A stretch of 64,000 bases of DNA from contig CALXMW010000004.1 of the NCBI GenBank assembly GCA_944389585.1, positions 62,001 through 126,000 of the forward strand. The letters run 5' to 3'. Position 1 is the stretch's first letter; every line of letters begins with the position of its first letter. The notes under the pieces were generated by a model. That model was given only the letters and a program-made list of their open reading frames with translations. It was not told the DNA's origin and searched no databases. A program made the position numbers and the translations under genes. Shown piece after piece: positions 44,046 to 54,452 of the stretch. The DNA is from an uncultured Kiritimatiellota bacterium (GTDB lineage Bacteria > Verrucomicrobiota > Kiritimatiellia > RFP12 > DVOR01).

Positions 44046-44951
44046 TTACCATTCCGCGTTGAAGCCGACGGAGCTCTCGCCCGGCTGCAGGGGGGTGGCC
44101 AAGAGTTCCTCGCCGGCGTAGAGGCGGGCGATGTCGGCCTCCAACGTTTCCCAATTAGGATAGCGCAACGCGCGGTCTTTCGCAAGCATCCTGTTGAGCA
44201 TGAGGGCGAGGGCGCGGGGGACGGCGGGGGCCAGGACGCGCGGGTCGCGCGCGAAGTTGGGGCCGATGTGCGCGTCCACCACCTGCTGGTCGGTCTTGCC
44301 GGGGAAGAGGGTGGAGCCGGTGAGCAGGTGGTAGGCCGTGGCGCCGAGGGCGTAGATGTCGGCGCGGCTGTCGAGGTCGGGCAGGTCGTAGATCTGGTCG
44401 GGGCTGATGTAGGCGGGGGTGCCCATGATCTCGCCGGCGGCGTCGGCGCCGGTGTTGCGCGCGGCGGTGAGGAGCGAGCGCGAGATGCCCAGATCCATGA
44501 GCTTGACGGTGCCGTCGGCGTCGACCATGAGGTTGTCGGGCTTCAGGTCGCAGTGCACGACGCGGAACTTCTGCCAGGCGTAGCGGAGCGCGGCGCAGAC
44601 GGCCTCGACGATGATGAGCACGTCCCCCACCGCCACCTGGCCCTTGCGCCGCAGGTAGCTGGCGAAGGTGTAGCCCTCCACCAGCTCCATGACGAAGTAA
44701 TAGGCGCCGCCCTCCTGGCCCACGTCGTAGACGCGCACGATGTTGCGGTGGCGGAAGCGGGCGCAGGCCTTGGCCTCGCGCAGGAAGCGCGCCACGTCCT
44801 CCTCCGTGCGCACGAAGTCGGCGTCGAGCACCTTCACGGCCACCTCGCGCCCGGTGGAGAGCTGGCGCGCGCGGTAGACGGTGGCGGTGCCGCCGCGGCC
44901 GAGCTCGGCCTCCAGCGCCAGGTTCGGCAGGGCGAGGGGCGGCTCACGCAT
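44046..44951 (-). CDS. Serine/threonine protein kinase
   Basis: 301 residues, a kinase domain only with no membrane anchor or sensor. Gly loop LGRGGTATVYRARQ, catalytic Lys40 in VAVKVLD, catalytic loop VVHCDLKPDNLMV (133-140 HCDLKPDN), DLG instead of DFG at 153-155, GTPAYISPDQ in place of the APE segment. All catalytic residues are present, so it should be active. Overlaps the toroid-protein gene upstream by eight bases and precedes galE, linking signalling to an exported protein and sugar metabolism. Confidence 0.92.
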   Translation of the reverse strand: MREPPLALPNLALEAELGRGGTATVYRARQLSTGREVAVKVLDADFVRTEEDVARFLREAKACARFRHRNIVRVYDVGQEGGAYYFVMELVEGYTFASYLRRKGQVAVGDVLIIVEAVCAALRYAWQKFRVVHCDLKPDNLMVDADGTVKLMDLGISRSLLTAARNTGADAAGEIMGTPAYISPDQIYDLPDLDSRADIYALGATAYHLLTGSTLFPGKTDQQVVDAHIGPNFARDPRVLAPAVPRALALMLNRMLAKDRALRYPNWETLEADIARLYAGEELLATPLQPGESSVGFNAEW

Positions 44952-46014
44952 CGCCGAGCACCACCGTCAGCGCCAGGAGCGCGTAGCTGGTGGAGAGCGC
45001 GGGGTCGCCCTCCCAATAGCGGTTGCTCTCGTTCACCCACGAGCCGTCGGGCCGCTGGCGTTTGAGGATGGCGCGGGCCAGCTCCTCGCGCCAATCCACC
45101 TCGCCGCCGCCCTCCAGCGCCAGGCGCTCGACCTGGGCGGCGGAGAGGGCGCGCGCGAGCACGTCGTAGTAAAAGTAGAGGCCCTGGTTGCCCTGGCCGG
45201 CGTTCTCGTCCACCGACCAATGGCGGCCCAGCCACTGGAGGGCCGAGCGCACGCGCGGGTCGTCGCGCCGCAGGTCGCAGTGAAGCATGGCCAGGAGCCC
45301 GGCGTAGGTCATCGAGCCATACGCGCGCAACGGCTCGCCCTCGCGCGGCGTCTCGCGGTTGTACAGGAAGCCGCCGGCGTCGGCCCCCGCCGTCTCCTGC
45401 ATGGAGAGGACGTAGGCGCGGGCCTTGCCCCAATCGATGTCCACGCGCTTCTGGCCGGGGCGCAGCTCCTCCACGTCGGCCGTCAGGCGCATGGCCTCCA
45501 CGGCGTAAAAGGTGTTGTTGAGGTCGGTGTAGGCCCGGGGCGAGCTTTTGTCGTAGCCGAAGCCGCCCTCATGGACGCCCGCGGCCTCGATCTGCGTGCT
45601 GGCGACGTAGGCGCGCGCCCCCAGCAGCACCTGCGCGCGCCGCTCCTTGGCCCCGGCCGCGTGCAGGGCCGTCAGGCACAGGCAGGTGTTGTAGTTGCCC
45701 AGGCCGCTGCCGCGCCGCCCCGGGATGGGCACGTAGAGCCCCCCGTCGGGCTGCGCGCACGAGGCGATGAAGGCCTCCGCCTTCGCCATCGCCCCGGCGT
45801 TCGCCGCGTCCTTCGCGTTGGCCATCGCCCAGAGCGCCAGGGCGCTCATCCCCGGGAAACGGCGATCCGACCACGAGCCGTCCGCCTGCTGCGCCGCGCG
45901 CAACCACGCGAAACCCCGCCCCAGCGCCTCCTGCGCCGCGGCGCGCGTCCCCGCCGTCAGCGCCAACAACGGCCCCGCCGCAACCAAAACCACGCAAAAA
46001 AGTGCCTGTCTCAT
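44944..46014 (-). CDS. Exported alpha/alpha-toroid (prenyltransferase/squalene-cyclase-like repeat) protein
   Basis: 356 residues. Signal peptide (ALFCVVLVAAGPLLALTAG), then repeats with the toroid signature: RAAQQADGSWSDRRF, AQPDGGLYVPI, EGGFGYDKSSPRAYTDLN, AGGFLYNRETP, QRPDGSWVNESNRYWEG. The catalytic DCTAE/DxDD motifs of true terpene cyclases are not visible, so a binding or scaffold role is more likely. Its -10 box lies eight bases before the ATG, suggesting a leaderless message. A second toroid domain occurs in the TonB-like protein at 52569. Confidence 0.8.
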   Translation of the reverse strand: MRQALFCVVLVAAGPLLALTAGTRAAAQEALGRGFAWLRAAQQADGSWSDRRFPGMSALALWAMANAKDAANAGAMAKAEAFIASCAQPDGGLYVPIPGRRGSGLGNYNTCLCLTALHAAGAKERRAQVLLGARAYVASTQIEAAGVHEGGFGYDKSSPRAYTDLNNTFYAVEAMRLTADVEELRPGQKRVDIDWGKARAYVLSMQETAGADAGGFLYNRETPREGEPLRAYGSMTYAGLLAMLHCDLRRDDPRVRSALQWLGRHWSVDENAGQGNQGLYFYYDVLARALSAAQVERLALEGGGEVDWREELARAILKRQRPDGSWVNESNRYWEGDPALSTSYALLALTVVLGDA

Positions 46015-46022
46015 GATGCGGC

Positions 46023-46033
46023 AGTATACCAAA
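46023..46033 (-). promoter_or_regulatory. Extended -10 promoter of the toroid-kinase-galE operon
   Basis: Minus-strand TTTGGTATACT with the -10 hexamer TATACT at 46028-46023. Eight bases (GCCGCATC) separate it from the ATG at 46014, so transcription should begin within a base or two of the start codon. Confidence 0.65.
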
Positions 46034-46210
46034 AAGGGAAAACGGGAACGGAAATCATGAAGGACACAAAGGGAGGGCGACGCAGGGGGAGACCACAGAG
46101 GACACAGAGGACACGCAGAGGGACACAGAGCTTTGGAAATCACAAAGGACACAAAGAACACAAAGGCTTGCACGACGCAGGGGAAAAGGGGAATGGGAAA
46201 GGGGAACTTA

Positions 46211-46268
46211 GGGCAAGGGGCGCCGCCCCTTGAACCCCGGCAGGGGGAAGCTCCCCCTGCACCCGCGG
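46211..46268 (-). repeat. REP-like double-hairpin block, copy 2
   Basis: Reverse-complement copy of the 5289 block: CAAGGGGC-GCC-GCCCCTTG and GCAGGGGG...CCCCCTGC hairpins, ending at CCCGCGG. It joins the GGCACGTC-TGC-GACGTGCC hairpin that begins the 96-base tandem repeat. Confidence 0.75.
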
Positions 46269-46505
46269 CACGTCTGCGACGTGCCTGACAGGCACCCCAA
46301 AAGACTTTGTGCCCTTTGTGGTTCTTTGAGCCTTTGTGATAGCCCGCGCAGCGAAAACCCGCGGCACGTCCGCGACGTGCCTGACAGGCACCCCAAAAGA
46401 CTTTGTGCCCTTTGTGGTTCTTTGGGCCTTTGTGATAGCCCGCGCAGCGAAAACCCGCGGCACGTCCGCGACGTGCCTGACAGGCACCCCAAAAGACTTT
46501 GTGCC
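46261..46505 (+). repeat. 96-base tandem repeat, about 2.5 copies
   Basis: Copies begin at 46261, 46357 and 46453 with a period of 96. Each unit has ACCCGCGGCACGTC, a GACGTGCC palindrome half, CTGACAGGCACCCCAAAAGA, a CTTTGTG array and AGCCCGCGCAGCGAAA. Copies 1 and 2 differ at only a few bases, suggesting recent duplication. Confidence 0.85.
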
Positions 46506-46640
46506 CGTTGTGATTTCCAAATCTCTGTGTCCCCCTGTGTGTCCTCTGTGTCCTCTGTGATCTCCCCTGCGTCGCCCGCCCTTTGTGCCCTTCGTGCCCG
46601 TTGTGATTTCCGTTCTTCCGTTCCTGGGGCGGGAAAGGTC

Positions 46641-46726: not shown

Positions 46727-49700
46727 ATGAGCTTTGACCGAGTGGGCCGGATGGGGTTTGCGTGGCCGTTGGGCGCGGCGTTGGCGCTGTTGCCGGCGTT
46801 GGCCCCCGCCGAGGACGCCCAGGACGCGGCGTTGCAGCTGGAGGTGCGCTACATCGACGCGCTCTCGAAGAGCGGCTACGCGGACTTCACCGAGCAGGTG
46901 ATCGCCGACGCGCAGAAGCGTTGGCCCGACGCCGGCGGCGTGCTGAAGGCCGCGCAGATCCGCGCCCAGCTGAGCGGCGGCAAGCAGGCCGAGGTGGAGA
47001 AGGAGATCGCCGCGCGCCCCGACCAGAACTCGCTGGACACGTGGCTGCTGAAGCTGGAGCTGGCGCAGAGCTACTACGCCTACTCGAAGTTCACCGAGGC
47101 CGACAAGCTGTACGCGGACTTCTTCAAGCGCTTCACCAAGGTGCCCGCCGCAGCCAAGGAATCCTACGTCAACGCCGCGCTCCTCTACATCCAGATGCTC
47201 GGGAAGATCGGCCGCGCCAAGGACGCCCTGCCGCTCTACAAGCTGGCGATGGAGCAGGCCCCCACCGACGAGGTGCGCTACTTCGTGCGCGCCGACTACC
47301 TCAAGGCCCTCCTCGCCCAGGCCGAGGCCCTCCAGGGCGCCGAGCGCGAGAAGCTCCTCAAAGACGCCGACGCCCTCGCCAACCAGATGGTCTGGCGCCA
47401 AGACGGCTACTTCGGCGACGCCATCAACGGCCTGGCCCACGTCAAGATGCTCCGCGGCGACACCAAAGGCGCCCAGGAGATGATTAACGACTACCTCGAC
47501 ACCCTCATGACCATCCACGAGGAATACAAGCGGATGGACCCCGACGGCGCCAAGGGCGTCCTCCGCCAAAGCCCCCTGCCGCAATGCCGCTACCTCATCG
47601 GCTCCATGCTCCTGCGCGAGGCCCAGGCCGAGATCGCCAAGCCCACCCCCAACGAGGAGACCATCAAGAACCTCCTCCTGGGCGAGCGCGACCCCGAGAC
47701 CAAGAAACGCAACGGCCAGGGCGCCCTCAACCACCTCGTCAACGTCTACGTCAACTACCCCGAAAGCCAATCCGCCGCCAGCGCCGGCGAGATGGCCAGC
47801 GAGATCACCCGCATCATCCTGGCGCGCTACAACACCGCCGTCAAGTTCAACACCACCCCCGAGCAAGACGCCAAAGTGCGCCAGGCCCAATTCGTCGAGG
47901 CCGACGTGAAGTTCGACTCCGGCGACTGGCCGGGCGCCGCCGCCGCCTTCTGCAAGACCATCTCGCGCTACGGCCTCAACGCCGAGGCCCTCCCCCGCCT
48001 CCAGAAACTCGTCGAGGCCACCGTCCGCGCCGGCGTCAAAGGCAACGCCCTCGACCCCATGGCCGCCCTCGACGCCGAGACCGTCATGCTCACCGTCGCC
48101 GAAGGCTTCTCCGGCGTCGCGGACGAAAACCTGCGCACCGAGGCCGGCAACACCCTCGGCAAAATCGCCGACTTCTTCAGCGAAAGCGGCCTGCGCACCC
48201 TCCAAGACAAAACCAACGCCGCCTTCTTCCGCTACTACCCCAAACACCCCGGCGCCGTCTCCCGGCAAGTGCGCATCGCCGAGGAAAAGGCCAAGGCCGG
48301 CGACGCCGACGGCGCCATCCAGCTCTACGAGCAGATCGCCGAGGCCGCCACCGCCGCCTCCCAGCGCGACACCCGCACCAAAGCCCTCAGCGAACTCGTC
48401 AAAATCTACGCCCCCAACGGCGTCAAGCCCGACCCCGAGGCCGAGCTCCGCGCCGCCCAGGCCTTCGCCGACCACTTCGCCGACATCGAACGCCCCGGCA
48501 TTAACGGCGCCCTCGCCCAATTCGCCCTCGCCGGCGCCTACCAACACCGCGCCGACTCCATGCGCCGACTGAAAGACGAGGACTCCCTCCGCTCCGTCCG
48601 CGGCGACTACGCCCAGGCCGCCAAGCTCTACACCGCCCTCGGCGCCGCCCTGGCCAAGGAAGACAACATCTACGCCGCCACCCGCGCCGAACGCGACCAG
48701 CTCGAAAAGGCCGGCATCGCCCAAGCCGCCCTCTTCCAGCGCGCCCTCTGCCTCCAGCGCATCCCCGCCACCGGCAACGACAAGGCCGACGCCGCCCTCA
48801 AGAAGAGCGCCCAAGCCTCCTACGAAGCCTACCTCAAACGCTTCCCCAAAGGCTCCTTCGCCCCCACCGCCCTCCTCCAGATCGCCACCATCCAGGTCGC
48901 CGCCGGCGACGTCGAAGGCTCCCAGGCCACCCTCACCCGCCTGGCCAAGGACTTCCCCGACTCCGACCAGGCCAAGAACGCCATCCCGATGCAGGCCGCC
49001 TCCCTCCTCAGCATGGGGATGCGCGGCGCCGCCGTCCAAGCCTACAAAGACATGTTCAAGGCCGGCGGCACCTACACCCCCGCCCAATACATGGACGCGG
49101 CCAAGGCCCTCCTCGACGAAGGCGAGGCCGACCTGGCCATCGAAGGCTGCGACAGCGTCCTCAAAGGCTCCGTCAAGGGCTACTACCCCCAGGCCATGCT
49201 CCTGCGCGCCCGCGCCCTCCTCGTCGCCGGCCGCCCCGAGGACGCCTACAAGCAGGTCGAGGAACTGAAGGAGAAATACGGCCGCACCACCGTCGCCATC
49301 GACACCCAGCTCCTCCTCGTCGACGTCGCCGGCGAGATGATCCTCGTGGCCAAAGACCAAGACGCCCGCAACGCCCTCATCAGCGAGGTCAAGGACGCCG
49401 TCGGCTTCGTCACCGCCCAGCGCAAAGACCCCGGCACCGCCGCGCGCCTGAACCTGGCCGTCGCCGAGGTCGCCCGCAAAGGCTACGAGGCCGCGCAGAA
49501 GGGCGGCGCCGACACCGCCACCCTCGCCCAGGCCGCGGGCTCGGCCCTCAACGCCTACCGCGTCGCCATGTCCGCCGGCGCCGTCGCCCCCAACGACCCG
49601 GCCGTCGCCCGCTACATCGAGGACGCCTACCTCGGCTACATCAGCCTGGCGCAGATCCGCGCCGAGCTCGCCCCGACCCCCGAGGAAGCCGCCGGCTTCT

Positions 49701-49819
49701 ACGGCGACATCGTCGAGTTCGGCGAGGAATACCTCAGCGACGCCTATTTCCCGCAGGGCAAATACCGCACCGAGATCCTCACCGCCGTCAACCAGGCCCG
49801 CAACCGCGCCCGCAAGTGA
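46727..49819 (+). CDS. Large exported TPR-repeat protein of the ExbBD cluster
   Basis: 1030 residues. Signal peptide (WPLGAALALLPALAPAED) followed almost entirely by helical tetratricopeptide-like repeats, for example LAQSYYAYSKFTEADKLYAD, VKFDSGDWPGAAAAFCKTIS, LYEQIAEAATAASQRDTRTK and YEAYLKRFPKGSFAPTALLQ. Likely a periplasmic scaffold. It precedes a second exported repeat protein, ExbB, two ExbD and a TonB-like protein, all co-oriented. The layout recalls TolQ-R-A systems with their TPR partner (YbgF/CpoB), but the protein is far longer. Function inferred from context only. Confidence 0.82.
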   Translation: MSFDRVGRMGFAWPLGAALALLPALAPAEDAQDAALQLEVRYIDALSKSGYADFTEQVIADAQKRWPDAGGVLKAAQIRAQLSGGKQAEVEKEIAARPDQNSLDTWLLKLELAQSYYAYSKFTEADKLYADFFKRFTKVPAAAKESYVNAALLYIQMLGKIGRAKDALPLYKLAMEQAPTDEVRYFVRADYLKALLAQAEALQGAEREKLLKDADALANQMVWRQDGYFGDAINGLAHVKMLRGDTKGAQEMINDYLDTLMTIHEEYKRMDPDGAKGVLRQSPLPQCRYLIGSMLLREAQAEIAKPTPNEETIKNLLLGERDPETKKRNGQGALNHLVNVYVNYPESQSAASAGEMASEITRIILARYNTAVKFNTTPEQDAKVRQAQFVEADVKFDSGDWPGAAAAFCKTISRYGLNAEALPRLQKLVEATVRAGVKGNALDPMAALDAETVMLTVAEGFSGVADENLRTEAGNTLGKIADFFSESGLRTLQDKTNAAFFRYYPKHPGAVSRQVRIAEEKAKAGDADGAIQLYEQIAEAATAASQRDTRTKALSELVKIYAPNGVKPDPEAELRAAQAFADHFADIERPGINGALAQFALAGAYQHRADSMRRLKDEDSLRSVRGDYAQAAKLYTALGAALAKEDNIYAATRAERDQLEKAGIAQAALFQRALCLQRIPATGNDKADAALKKSAQASYEAYLKRFPKGSFAPTALLQIATIQVAAGDVEGSQATLTRLAKDFPDSDQAKNAIPMQAASLLSMGMRGAAVQAYKDMFKAGGTYTPAQYMDAAKALLDEGEADLAIEGCDSVLKGSVKGYYPQAMLLRARALLVAGRPEDAYKQVEELKEKYGRTTVAIDTQLLLVDVAGEMILVAKDQDARNALISEVKDAVGFVTAQRKDPGTAARLNLAVAEVARKGYEAAQKGGADTATLAQAAGSALNAYRVAMSAGAVAPNDPAVARYIEDAYLGYISLAQIRAELAPTPEEAAGFYGDIVEFGEEYLSDAYFPQGKYRTEILTAVNQARNRARK

Positions 49820-49841
49820 CCCTTCCCATCCGCCCCCCCGA

Positions 49842-49852
49842 TTTGATACACT
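49842..49852 (+). promoter_or_regulatory. Extended -10 promoter within the ExbBD cluster
   Basis: TTTGATACACT with the -10 hexamer TACACT at 49847-49852, followed by AAGGAACAG before the ATG at 49867. It could give extra transcription of the second half of the cluster. Confidence 0.55.
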
Positions 49853-49866
49853 AAGGAACAGATGCC

Positions 49867-50673
49867 ATGAAAACGCTTCGCGAAACCTTCGGCGCCGTGT
49901 GCGCCCTGATGCTGGCGGCCACCGTCGGCGCCGCCGCGGCCAAACCCACCGGCACGGTCTACACCACCGCAGGCGGCTCGGCCACCGGCGAGATCCAGTG
50001 GCGCAACTCCGCCAAGGAATACGTCGTCACCACCTCGCGCGGCAGCATCACCTATCCCGCCGACGACGTCGAGCGCGTGGACATCACCCCGCCCGCCCAA
50101 TTCGCCGCCGCCGCCAAGGCCGTCCAAACCGGCGCCAACCTCGCCTCCGCGACCAAGACGCTCGAGGAAATCGCCAAGGAATACCGCCGCCTCACCTACG
50201 ACGTCGAGGCCACGCGCTGGCTCGCCGAGGCCTACCTCAAGCAAGGCAACGCCGCCAAGGCCGTCAGCGCCTGCGAGGCCGTCATCCGCGACGACCCCGC
50301 CGCCGCCTACACCGGCCAGATGGCCGTGCAATACTGGCAGGCCCTCATCAAGGCCAACAAAACCTCCGGCCTCGAGCGCCTCCTCGAAAAGGCCATCGCC
50401 TCCGGCGACCAAGCCGCCGCCGCCGAGGCCCTCGTCGCCCGCGGCGACAGCGTCATGGCCCGCGGCAACTCCCGCGCCAACTGCGAGGAAGCCCTGCGCG
50501 ACGGCTACCTGCGCGTCATCCTCCTCTACGCCGACCCCGCCTCCGGCGCCTATCCCGCCGCCCTCTACAAAGGCGCGCAGGCCTTCGACGGCATGGGCCA
50601 GCCCAGCCGCGCCGGCCAGCTCCGCGACAAGCTGAAAGCCGAGTGCCCCGGCTCCGAATGGGCCCGCAAGTAA
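49867..50673 (+). CDS. Exported repeat protein of the ExbBD cluster
   Basis: 268 residues, not assigned to a known family. Signal peptide (TFGAVCALMLAATVGAAAA); a small N-terminal beta domain (TVYTTAGGSATGEIQWRNSA, TTSRGSITYPADDVERVDI) that resembles short domains recognising surface or RNA ligands; then helical TPR-like repeats (RWLAEAYLKQGNAAKAVSAC, YPAALYKGAQAFDGMGQPSR). Lies 44 bases before exbB. Confidence 0.75.
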   Translation: MKTLRETFGAVCALMLAATVGAAAAKPTGTVYTTAGGSATGEIQWRNSAKEYVVTTSRGSITYPADDVERVDITPPAQFAAAAKAVQTGANLASATKTLEEIAKEYRRLTYDVEATRWLAEAYLKQGNAAKAVSACEAVIRDDPAAAYTGQMAVQYWQALIKANKTSGLERLLEKAIASGDQAAAAEALVARGDSVMARGNSRANCEEALRDGYLRVILLYADPASGAYPAALYKGAQAFDGMGQPSRAGQLRDKLKAECPGSEWARK

Positions 50674-50717
50674 TCCCCCCTTAACCACCCTTTCCCAACC
50701 CAACCGAGGAAACAACG

Positions 50718-51500
50718 ATGAAGAAGATGATGATGGCTCTGGCGGTCTCCGCCCTTCTGTTCGGCGCGGTCTTCACCGCGGGCTCCGCCTATGCCCAAGA
50801 CCCGGCGCAACCCGCCGAGGCCCAAGTCGCCAACGCCGCCGGCGCCGAGGACGAGGGCCCGGGCGAGACGACGTTCTGGATGGTCGTGTTCGGCTCCGGC
50901 TGGGTCGGCGTCATCCTCTGGGCCGCCCTCTTCGCCTCCGGCGGCTTCGCGATTTACTTCATCATCGACGGCTTCATCCTGGTGCGCCCCGCCAAGATCA
51001 TGCCCCAGGGCCTGATTGACCAGGTCAAGGAAGCGATGGACCAGGGCGACGTGATGAAGGCCATCGAGATCTGCGACCAAGATCCCTCCTCCATGGCCAA
51101 GATCCTCAAGGCCGGCTTCGCCCACGTCGAGGAAGGCTTCGACGTGATCGACGAGGCCATCGGCGGCGCGGCCGACATCGAGATCGAGCAGATGATGCAG
51201 CGCCTCAACTGGATCTCCGTCTGCTCCGCCCTCGCCCCGATGCTCGGGCTGCTGGGCACGGTGCAAGGCATGATCCTGACCTTCGCCACCATCGCCATCC
51301 AGGGCGTCGAGATCTCCTCGCTCTCCATGACGATCTCCCAGGCGCTCTACACCACCGCCGGCGGCCTCGTCGTCGCCATCCCGGCCATCACCTTCTTCTA
51401 CGCGCTGCGCAACACCGCCAACCGCCTCGTCCTGCGCATGCAGGTCGTCACCAGCGACCTGATCAAGAACCTGCGCAACGTCGAAGTCGTCGAGGAGTGA
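50718..51500 (+). CDS. exbB: MotA/TolQ/ExbB family proton channel protein
   Basis: 260 residues. Unusual N-terminal signal-like segment plus a periplasmic stretch (to about residue 50), then TM1 (WVGVILWAALFASGGFAIYF), a cytosolic domain, and the TolQ/ExbB signature LNWISVCSALAPMLGLLGTV QGMI region near 160-185 followed by TTAGGLVVAIPAITFFYAL. Forms a pentameric channel with ExbD that turns proton flow into force on a TonB/TolA-type protein. Two exbD genes and a TonB-like gene follow. Confidence 0.93.
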   Translation: MKKMMMALAVSALLFGAVFTAGSAYAQDPAQPAEAQVANAAGAEDEGPGETTFWMVVFGSGWVGVILWAALFASGGFAIYFIIDGFILVRPAKIMPQGLIDQVKEAMDQGDVMKAIEICDQDPSSMAKILKAGFAHVEEGFDVIDEAIGGAADIEIEQMMQRLNWISVCSALAPMLGLLGTVQGMILTFATIAIQGVEISSLSMTISQALYTTAGGLVVAIPAITFFYALRNTANRLVLRMQVVTSDLIKNLRNVEVVEE

Positions 51501-51577
51501 GCGGCGGGAAGCCGGGGCGGCGCGCCGAACACGCCCGCCCCGCCCCCCCCCAAGCGTCCACACCCGGAGGCACTCCC

Positions 51578-52096
51578 ATGGCGAAAAAGAAGAAAAACTC
51601 ACGCGAGAACGACGGCGCCTCGCTTGACATGACGCCGATGATCGACGTCGTCTTCCAGCTCATCATCTTCTTCGTCGTGACGTTGAAGACGGCCGACACC
51701 ATCAACCCCGACATCAAGCTGGAATACGGCAAGAACGGCCCCGACCTCCAAGACATGCTCAAGGAGAACCAGGCCACGCCCCCCATCACCATCGAAGTGC
51801 GCACCTACACCACGGTCACCGACTTCCTGAAGACGGCCTTCGCCAGCCGCGGCGAGCCCGTGCGCACCGGGTGCGTCATCTCCGTCAACGGCAGCATCCT
51901 CAACCGCTCCCAGCTGCTGGGCATGCTCCGCAACATCCGCCGCCAGCGCGGGCAGAACTGCCCCGTCCTCATCCGCGCGGACAAGGACACCCTCCACGAG
52001 CACGTCCGCCAGGTCATGAACATCGCCGGCGAGGCCGGGCTCTGGAAGCTCTCCTTCATCGCCATGGTCAAGGAAGGCGATTCCGCCACCAAATAA
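51578..52096 (+). CDS. exbD: ExbD/TolR family protein 1
   Basis: 172 residues. Lys-rich start, then the membrane helix with the essential Asp in LDMTPMIDVVFQLIIFFVV near residues 16-34. The periplasmic domain is longer than in typical ExbD and ends VLIRADKDTLHEHVRQVMNI. The start at 51578 has CCGGAGGCACTCCC ahead. Twelve bases before the second exbD. Confidence 0.93.
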   Translation: MAKKKKNSRENDGASLDMTPMIDVVFQLIIFFVVTLKTADTINPDIKLEYGKNGPDLQDMLKENQATPPITIEVRTYTTVTDFLKTAFASRGEPVRTGCVISVNGSILNRSQLLGMLRNIRRQRGQNCPVLIRADKDTLHEHVRQVMNIAGEAGLWKLSFIAMVKEGDSATK

Positions 52097-52108
52097 AAGG
52101 AGCGCGCA

Positions 52109-52531
52109 ATGGCAAAAAGCAAACGGAGCAACTCCGGCGACGGCGCCGCGCTCGACATGACGCCGATGATCGACGTCGTCTTCCAGCTCATCATCTTCTT
52201 CGTGGTGACCATGCGCCAGGAGGACATCCTCTCGCACCTCGACGCGATGGCCCCCGCCGGGCAGACCAACGCCAACCCGCAGGAACAGCTCGAGCTCATC
52301 ACCATCGACATCTACAACCCCAAAAAGCAGGCCGGCGAAGGCTTCCTCTTCAACAAGCGCGCCGTCCGCTACGAGCAGCTTGACCGCGAGATCGAGCGCG
52401 CCGCGCGCAACAGCAAGACCTCCACGGTCATGTTCCGCTGCACCAAGGATTCCCCGCACTCCCTGCTCATCAAGGCACTTGACCTCTGCGCCAAGCACGG
52501 CATGACCAACTTGGCCATCTTCACCATTTGA
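52109..52531 (+). CDS. exbD: ExbD/TolR family protein 2
   Basis: 140 residues. Membrane helix ALDMTPMIDVVFQLIIFFVV with the same Asp. The coding sequence around this helix is nearly identical to that of the first exbD, implying duplication, while the periplasmic domains have diverged (ends FRCTKDSPHSLLIKALDLCA). A heteromeric ExbD1/ExbD2 rotor is plausible. Confidence 0.93.
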   Translation: MAKSKRSNSGDGAALDMTPMIDVVFQLIIFFVVTMRQEDILSHLDAMAPAGQTNANPQEQLELITIDIYNPKKQAGEGFLFNKRAVRYEQLDREIERAARNSKTSTVMFRCTKDSPHSLLIKALDLCAKHGMTNLAIFTI

Positions 52532-52568
52532 CGTGGCCGCGGCCCTGCGCCGCACTGGAGGATTTCCG

Positions 52569-54452
52569 ATGGCAGACATCGACGAGACGACCCCGCCCCT
52601 TGACCCCTCGAGCCTCTCCAGGGACGAGCTCATCAAGATGATCGACGAGGAGGAGCGCTCCTACCCCCGCCGCATCATCGACATGTGCAAGGGCCTCGGC
52701 CAGCCCAAGGACTCGCTCGACTACAAGAAGGCGATCATCGAGCTCCAGCGCCTGGGCGCGCCCCTCGGCGCCATCCTCATCCTCGCCGTCGCCCTCGTCG
52801 CGATGAGCCTCATGAAGATCACCGCAGAGGAGAAGCCCCCCGTCGTCGTCACTGAGCTCGTCCAGGCCGAGGAGACCGAGCAGCTCGAGGAGCCCCCGGA
52901 AGAGCCCCCGGAGCCGCCGGAGGAAATCCCCGAGATGGAAGAGTTCGTCGAGACCGACGTCGTCGTCGACATCGACGCCCCGCCCACCACCTCCTCCGTC
53001 CAATCCCCCTCCCCCGCCCCCGTCGACGCCGTCGCCATCACCCCCTCCCCCAAAGTCATGGTCGGCGTCTACGCCAGCCGCTCCTCCGGCACCCGCGGCG
53101 CCGCCATCGGCCGCTACGGCGTCAAGACCGAGCAATACGTCTACGGCTTCCTGCGCTACCTCAAGAAAACCCAAAGCCCCAACGGCATGTGGGATGCCGA
53201 CCGCAAGGAAGTCTCCACCGGCGCCACCGCCCTCGCCCTCCTCTGCTTCCTCGCCCACGGCGAGCTCCCCGGCCAAAGCGCCGAGTTCGGCGACACCGTC
53301 GAAAAAGCCATCCGCGGCCTCATCAACGACCAAATCAAGACCGAGGCCGAGATCGACCACCGCGACGCCCCCCGCAAAGGCGGCACCTATGCCTGGCGCC
53401 GCGGCGAAATCGGCTACTTCAAGGGCCGCGACACCTGCAACTACGCCCACCTCATCGCCGTCTACGCCCTCTCCGAAGCCTACGCCATGACCCGCATCCC
53501 CGATGTCAAGGCCGCCGTCGAACGCGCCCTCCCGCACATCATCAACGGCCAAAACGCCCAGGGCGGTTGGTACTACAACATGGACGCCTCCTGCCCCGTC
53601 ATCGACACCTCCTACGCCAGCTGGGCCGTCCAGGCCCTCAAGGCCGCCAAGCTCGCCCACGTCGGCGACTCCAAGGCCATCGTCGCCGCGCTCAAGAAAG
53701 CCTCCCGCGGCATCAAGGCCCTTTCCCACCCCGACGGCTCCTTCGGCTACACCACCAAAAACAAAAACGAGGAACGCCTCTACCCCGGCCTCACCGCCCC
53801 CTGCGCCCTCATCCTCCAGATGCTCGACGAAAGCGACACCGAGCTCTGCCGCAAAGCCATCCAATACATGAGCTCCTGGGAGCCCACCTTCAAGCGCAAC
53901 TTCACCGCCTCGCGCAGCGGCGCCATCCCCATGAAGGGCGCCTCCCCCCAATACTACTGCTACTACCTCTCCCAAGTCCGCTTCAACCTCGGCGACGCCC
54001 ACCCCTCCTGGAAAGCCTGGAACGCCCAGCAACAAGCCATCTACTCCGCCGCCGCCATCAACATCCCCGCCGAAAAATCCGGCTACAAAGACCAAAACGG
54101 CAAACCCCAATACATCACCTTCTGGCCCCGCAAAGGCGCCAAACACCGCTTCGGCGGGGACTCCGCCGCCATCCCCGACGAGCAACGCCTCGCCCAGCAA
54201 GGCGGCACCCGCAACGGCATGCGCGGCAAATGGCCCGTCGCCGACCTCGTCAACGGCGACGCCGCCACCAGCGAATGGCAAGGCGCCGGCTCCGACATCA
54301 TCTCCAGCTGCTTCACCGCCCTCCAACTCATGGTCTACTACCGCAACAGCCCCCTCTCCAAAGGCGCCCTCACCGCCATCGAGGAAGAGACCGAAGTCAA
54401 AGTCGACGAGGGCGGCGGCAACGAGGTCGAGCTCGACTTCGGCGACCTCTAA
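52569..54452 (+). CDS. TonB-like membrane protein with a C-terminal alpha/alpha-toroid domain
   Basis: 627 residues. A cytosolic N-terminus of about 62 residues, one membrane helix (APLGAILILAVALVAMSLM), then a TonB/TolA-style Pro/Glu spacer (EEPPEEPPEPPEEIPEMEE, about 95-125) and a Pro/Ser/Thr linker. From about 175 onward is a prenyltransferase/squalene-oxidase-like toroid: KKTQSPNGMWDADRK, GGWYYNMDASCPVIDTSYAS, HPDGSFGYTTKNKNEERLYP. No TonB C-terminal fold is visible. The two ExbD genes and ExbB directly upstream make it the likely force-transducing partner. Unusual architecture; ligand unknown. Confidence 0.82.
   Translation: MADIDETTPPLDPSSLSRDELIKMIDEEERSYPRRIIDMCKGLGQPKDSLDYKKAIIELQRLGAPLGAILILAVALVAMSLMKITAEEKPPVVVTELVQAEETEQLEEPPEEPPEPPEEIPEMEEFVETDVVVDIDAPPTTSSVQSPSPAPVDAVAITPSPKVMVGVYASRSSGTRGAAIGRYGVKTEQYVYGFLRYLKKTQSPNGMWDADRKEVSTGATALALLCFLAHGELPGQSAEFGDTVEKAIRGLINDQIKTEAEIDHRDAPRKGGTYAWRRGEIGYFKGRDTCNYAHLIAVYALSEAYAMTRIPDVKAAVERALPHIINGQNAQGGWYYNMDASCPVIDTSYASWAVQALKAAKLAHVGDSKAIVAALKKASRGIKALSHPDGSFGYTTKNKNEERLYPGLTAPCALILQMLDESDTELCRKAIQYMSSWEPTFKRNFTASRSGAIPMKGASPQYYCYYLSQVRFNLGDAHPSWKAWNAQQQAIYSAAAINIPAEKSGYKDQNGKPQYITFWPRKGAKHRFGGDSAAIPDEQRLAQQGGTRNGMRGKWPVADLVNGDAATSEWQGAGSDIISSCFTALQLMVYYRNSPLSKGALTAIEEETEVKVDEGGGNEVELDFGDL

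Follow-up and report, generated by a model that had tools for sequence, protein, structure and literature searches.

ExbB and ExbD family proteins form a proton-driven motor in the bacterial inner membrane, and motors of this type act through small alpha/beta domains, those of TonB and TolA. What such a motor would do with a large alpha/alpha-toroid instead is the question raised by an operon in a 64,000-nucleotide stretch of DNA (hereafter the window) from an uncultured Kiritimatiellota bacterium (contig CALXMW010000004.1). Six plus-strand genes lie at 46727–54452, within 7.7 kb and separated by gaps of 12 to 77 bp, and form one tight operon. They encode, in this order, two tetratricopeptide-repeat (TPR) proteins, an ExbB, two ExbDs and a 627-residue protein with a toroid head. 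The original prediction had listed a 1030-residue TPR protein, an exported repeat protein, ExbB, two ExbDs and the 627-residue protein, and all six open reading frames were found where it had placed them.

The operon probably (at a rough estimate, 65%) encodes a trans-envelope machine that is driven by the proton-motive force and has the toroid-headed protein as its force transducer. ExbB and the two non-identical ExbDs constitute the motor in the inner membrane, a role established for their families. The 627-residue protein would dock its helix on ExbB, as suggested by synteny, by co-occurrence and by the S-x3-H found in its relatives. Its linker would span the periplasm, and the C-terminal toroid, which takes the place of the TonB or TolA domain, would pull or clamp a target at the outer membrane or cell wall by way of the secreted TPR proteins. 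A short box in front of the head may be where a shared periplasmic partner docks.

Topology and fold of the 627-residue protein

The gene for the toroid protein (52569..54452, + strand), identified by the topology and fold of its product, starts at an ATG at 52569 that is preceded by a good Shine-Dalgarno sequence. A single membrane helix at residues 66–84 (about 62–84; 52764..52820) was located by hydropathy, by the structural model and by alignment with the S-x3-H of relatives. Averaged over the family, charge is positive before the helix and negative after it (before exceeds after in 117 of 130), and the protein is therefore predicted to be oriented N-in, with the toroid in the periplasm. 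The TonB topology of one helix and a Pro/Glu spacer that had been claimed for this protein thus stands, as a single N-in helix followed by roughly 90 residues of disordered linker; the amendment is that some 60 residues ahead of the helix are predicted to be cytoplasmic. The Pro/Glu-rich spacer itself covers residues 85–157 (52821..53039) and leads to the pre-head box TPSPKVMVGVYASRSSGTR at residues 158–176 (53040..53096), which is common to other proteins of the genus.

The structure of the product of 52569–54452 alone was predicted with AlphaFold2 on a 50-sequence alignment. The model has a helix at residues 50–81, disorder at 85–171 (predicted local distance difference test, pLDDT, below 50) and a confident all-helical domain at about 177–595 (53097..54353; pLDDT mostly 85–97). 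When the head was compared with the Protein Data Bank by Foldseek, squalene-hopene cyclase ranked first (2sqc, E 2e-5), followed by sugar 2-epimerases and family GH76; 8paj (342 residues) gave a TMt of 0.62. Because of this ranking the modelled head is assigned to the alpha/alpha toroids. A profile search of the head found no family above cut-off, and neither TonB_C (PF03544) nor the TolA C-terminal domain was matched in the 627-residue protein, so that a toroid in place of the TonB C-terminal domain, as originally proposed, agrees with both model and profile search.

The alpha/alpha-toroid fold is also found in enzymes and scaffolds, and ligand binding by the head, as originally suggested, is a candidate role only. 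Alternatively, the protein could be a membrane-anchored enzyme for terpene or sugar processing, like other alpha/alpha-toroid and (alpha/alpha)6 enzymes, with the motor genes just sharing its operon or energising another partner. The nearest folds are indeed enzymatic, relatives give weak SQHop_cyclase_C and pectate lyase matches, and seven invariant toroid aromatics (W208, Y292, Y336, Y462, Y465, Y466 and W519) could line a pocket. The head shares its fold with squalene-hopene cyclases and prenyltransferases, but differs from the cyclases in being membrane-anchored on a linker, in falling below the family cut-offs and in having no DxDD motif, which was sought in the window protein and is present in only 23 of 156 relatives. 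A terpene cyclase identity is disfavoured by the absence of DxDD. An enzymatic role would also leave unexplained both the S-x3-H of relatives and how strictly the protein co-occurs with an ExbB of its own, as described below, and is considered unlikely.

Conservation of the operon and coupling to the motor

Relatives of the toroid protein occur in Kiritimatiellota, Lentisphaerota, Verrucomicrobiota and Planctomycetota, the nearest named one in Candidatus Spyradenecus, and of 388 genomes sampled within the window's phylum, 196 contain the family. All contigs of the genus that are long enough to show the gene order have it unbroken. The cognate ExbB forms a separate orthologue group, with 42–60% identity outside the genus, whereas paralogues follow after a large score gap, mostly at 30–37%. 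Forty loci with this ExbB were sampled outside the genus, at class level. Two ExbD genes lie downstream of it in all 40, and at least one TPR gene lies upstream in 39, the remaining locus beginning at a contig edge. The toroid gene directly follows TPR-TPR-ExbB-ExbD-ExbD in 29 of these loci, and in one more with mutL in between. Conservation of gene order among bacteria of the Planctomycetota–Verrucomicrobiota–Chlamydiota (PVC) group, on which the original prediction had been made to depend, is thus seen across the genus and at 29 of the 40 more distant loci. In addition, the cognate ExbB is present in 73 of 75 genomes with a toroid protein versus 2 of 13 without one (both 73, neither 11, discordant 4; Fisher p = 2e-10, uncorrected for relatedness).

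Variants of the arrangement were also recorded. The toroid gene is tandemly duplicated at the operon end in one genus member (L028:11914-15657, genome G011). Planctomycetota-type toroid proteins at four loci (L073, L078, L097 and L107) are 1186–1413 residues long, have several membrane helices and directly follow ExbB-ExbD.

The His of the S-x3-H motif is essential in TonB and TolA. In Escherichia coli, Ser16 and His20 of TonB touch Ser34 and Trp38 of ExbB (PMC12215075). The toroid-protein helix carries S-x3-[H/N] in 20 of 20 Lentisphaerota and 39 of 40 Planctomycetota, against a background of 20/510 (4%) among ExbB/ExbD membrane helices; the count in the order and genus of the window is 0/29. 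The ExbB residue equivalent to Ser34 is Ser in all 22 operons whose helix has H/N; of the 31 operons whose helix does not, 29 have Gly, Ala or Leu there. In the window's lineage, as read from these alignments, S-x3-H was lost and the contact residue of ExbB altered as well. A strand resembling the D-box, scored by the definition in PMC10907165, follows the helix in 33 of 53 family members versus 19.5 ± 3.3 in shuffled linkers. Synteny, co-occurrence and the motif in relatives together support a coupling of the toroid protein to the ExbB/ExbD motor.

Several observations weigh against such a machine. The window's own helix contains neither Ser nor His, the positions of TonB S16 and H20 being A68 and L72, and the stretch VVVTELVQ in its linker resembles the D-box imperfectly. 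The covariation between helix and ExbB, strong by count, comprises only about two phylogenetically independent pairs and is not significant; because only about two independent changes fall on the tree, it is suggestive and was rejected as proof of coupling. Ten of the 40 class-level operons have no toroid gene within reach, and many toroid paralogues lie away from any motor, such as a tandem pair in genome G124.

No vWA gene was seen to substitute for the toroid gene in the toroid-less operons, where mutL and other unrelated genes come next. The two toroid proteins encoded by the tandem pair (L150:7716-10888) are membrane-anchored, hardly differ in their N-termini and linkers, and have neither S-x3-H nor an adjoining ExbB. 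Its genome is presumably that of Akkermansia muciniphila. A direct link to the mucin utilization loci of that species was considered and discarded, in that the published MUL2 genes (amuc_1099-1102) include no toroid and the toroid pair is not beside an ExbB.

The loss of S-x3-H in the window's lineage would suit a structural contact better than a signalling one, and toroids and TPRs are common scaffolds. Both points agree with a static anchor, in which the toroid protein would sit on peptidoglycan or on the TPR proteins and hold or gate the motor, as the MotB and TolR domains do. That role, however, is already filled by the two ExbDs, and a disordered linker of this length is better suited to reaching across the periplasm than to rigid anchoring. 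A static anchor is accordingly rated as unlikely. Under the transducer reading, the pattern and motif predictions, for example the matched ExbB residue, make the toroid motor directly testable.

Motor subunits, periplasmic proteins and the pre-head box

The ExbB/TolQ-type subunit (50718..51500, +; PF01618, 88.8 bits) and both ExbDs pass their Pfam cut-offs with a clear margin. ExbD1 (51578..52096, +; 172 residues; PF02472, 61.8 bits) has the longer periplasmic domain, and its start was corrected to 51578 from the start codon and ribosome-binding site. ExbD2 (52109..52531, +; 140 residues; PF02472, 67.4 bits), like ExbD1, carries the membrane Asp within MIDVVFQ. This ExbB and its orthologues keep the equivalents of the pore residues Thr148 and Thr181 and of Pro190; the Ser34 equivalent in the window's ExbB is Gly. 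The exported extra N-terminus that had been attributed to this ExbB is borne out by a signal-peptide-like stretch ahead of the first membrane helix. Long ExbB proteins whose N-terminus is extended into the periplasm before the first helix were already described (PMC9008036); here the extension occurs within a toroid operon, and it is itself no novelty.

An ExbB-like protein without the Thr148, Thr181 and Pro190 equivalents is encoded elsewhere in the genome (G000:C3, about 115.2–119.7 kb; L180:6258-10659). After it come two proteins with one helix each, of which the first looks like an ExbD that lacks the membrane Asp, and then an exported 754-residue protein. The locus is possibly a non-motor derivative.

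The first gene of the operon (46727..49819, +) encodes an exported TPR protein of 1030 residues, TPR1030, with TPR_19 above cut-off. The second (49867..50673, +) encodes the exported TPR268, whose 268 residues comprise a small N-terminal domain and TPRs; it was assigned from weak TPR matches and its conserved position. In the window, each of the two carries a Sec-type signal peptide and lacks a lipobox. Among orthologues, an N-terminal signal peptide is found in 46/49 and a lipobox in 2/49 for TPR1030, and a hydrophobic N-terminal signal in 49/49 for TPR268. Since nearly all orthologues have Sec-type signals without a lipobox, the pair is most likely soluble in the periplasm, and the two secreted proteins would be the likeliest periplasmic partners of the toroid.

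A motor, a transducer and a TPR protein also occur together in Tol-Pal (TolQ-TolR-TolA-CpoB), and the order of TPR, TolQ and TolR is reminiscent of tol-pal. The operon might therefore replace Tol-Pal, with CpoB/YbgF-like TPR proteins, in constricting the outer membrane at division. TolB (TolB_N) was not detected in the 93.6%-complete genome, and TPR1030 scores 54 bits with the YbgF-like model TIGR02795, although the cut-off is 90. The toroid system differs from Tol-Pal in having no TolA domain, no TolB found, and two TPR and two TolR/ExbD-type genes. Moreover, relatives often have several toroid paralogues whereas Tol-Pal is single-copy, and some members of the class are without the system. 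Replacement of Tol-Pal is judged quite improbable.

Within the pre-head box, T158, S160, P161, G174 and R176 are invariant in alignment A1. A 468-residue protein of another genus member (L031:10436-11839; G015:C36) has the cytosolic segment, helix, Pro-rich linker and box of the toroid protein and, instead of the toroid, a beta-rich head with a weak PA14 match; no ExbB or ExbD match was found elsewhere in that locus. In addition, 4 of 17 genus genomes, the window's not being among those in which it was found, encode a secreted protein that combines a vWA-like region (read from its sequence) with TPRs and DUF2135 (L256, L257 and L018/L255, in G005, G006 and G004). The box is present in the secreted protein of G006 and G004, for example SLAPAPVVLRGVHGSRNP, and its version APAPVVLRGVHGSRNP resembles TPSPVVLKGVHGSRNP, which the L033 toroid protein carries. 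Because the box is common to otherwise different periplasmic proteins, it is a candidate docking signal for a common periplasmic partner.

Relation to known energised systems

Ton shares with the toroid system an ExbB/ExbD motor, an N-in helix and a Pro-rich linker, to which distant relatives of the toroid protein add S-x3-H and many relatives a D-box-like strand. This topology could be that of a diverged Ton system serving outer-membrane TonB-dependent receptors. However, Ton has the alpha/beta TonB_C head, whereas the toroid operon adds a second ExbD and two TPR proteins, and the window protein has lost the His. The absence of a TonB-dependent receptor nearby, pointed out at the outset, extends to the whole genome, in which the receptor barrel (PF00593) has no match at the completeness given above. 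A search for a true TonB elsewhere located a TonB_C protein beside its own ExbB/ExbD (G000:C1, 91–93 kb). Since neither receptor barrel nor TolB was detected, the toroid machine probably does not belong to the receptor-type Ton systems; service to such receptors was rejected for want of a PF00593 match, and a diverged Ton is the most improbable of the alternatives weighed here.

The closest published counterpart is found in PVC operons with a TPR gene, tolQ, two tolRs and a one-helix transducer with a vWA head, for which motor-driven force transduction was proposed (Williams-Jones et al., 2025; PMC12204202). As in the toroid operon, the genes for a TPR protein, a TolQ-like subunit and two non-identical TolR-like subunits precede that for a one-helix protein with a Pro-rich linker and a large head. 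Many vWA transducers have an SHLS motif; the window protein has no S-x3-H, which its distant relatives do have. The heads differ, vWA there and alpha/alpha-toroid here, and the text of PMC12204202 mentions neither toroid, squalene nor prenyltransferase. No link between toroid and ExbD was found in the literature searched, which left most subscription papers beyond its reach. Because the layout was published with a vWA head and the toroid class is unmentioned, the toroid-headed protein appears to add a second class of head to the PVC motor-driven transducers already proposed. Of the different way to use proton-motive force that had been envisaged, the toroid head holds and coupling is supported; the layout is not new.

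The occurrence of a toroid head within a conserved operon of PVC bacteria would mean that the same motor can carry a very different gripping domain. It is quite possible, though more tentative than the transducer reading itself, that the operon represents, alongside Ton and Tol, a third class of energised machine that acts across the envelope, widespread in PVC bacteria, with the toroid acting on TPR and box-bearing proteins. Such a class would cover lineages in which no TonB-dependent receptor has been detected. In the host lineages, which include gut Kiritimatiellae, little is understood of transport across the outer membrane or of how the envelope is constricted.

Upstream of the operon and divergent from it, a secreted single-toroid protein with SQHop_cyclase_C above cut-off is encoded at 44944–46095 (−), and its gene is overlapped by a Ser/Thr kinase gene at 44046–44951 (−); in the closest relative, no such pair was found next to the operon. 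A tandem repeat with a 96-bp unit and 2.6 copies (46261–46512) lies immediately upstream of the operon.

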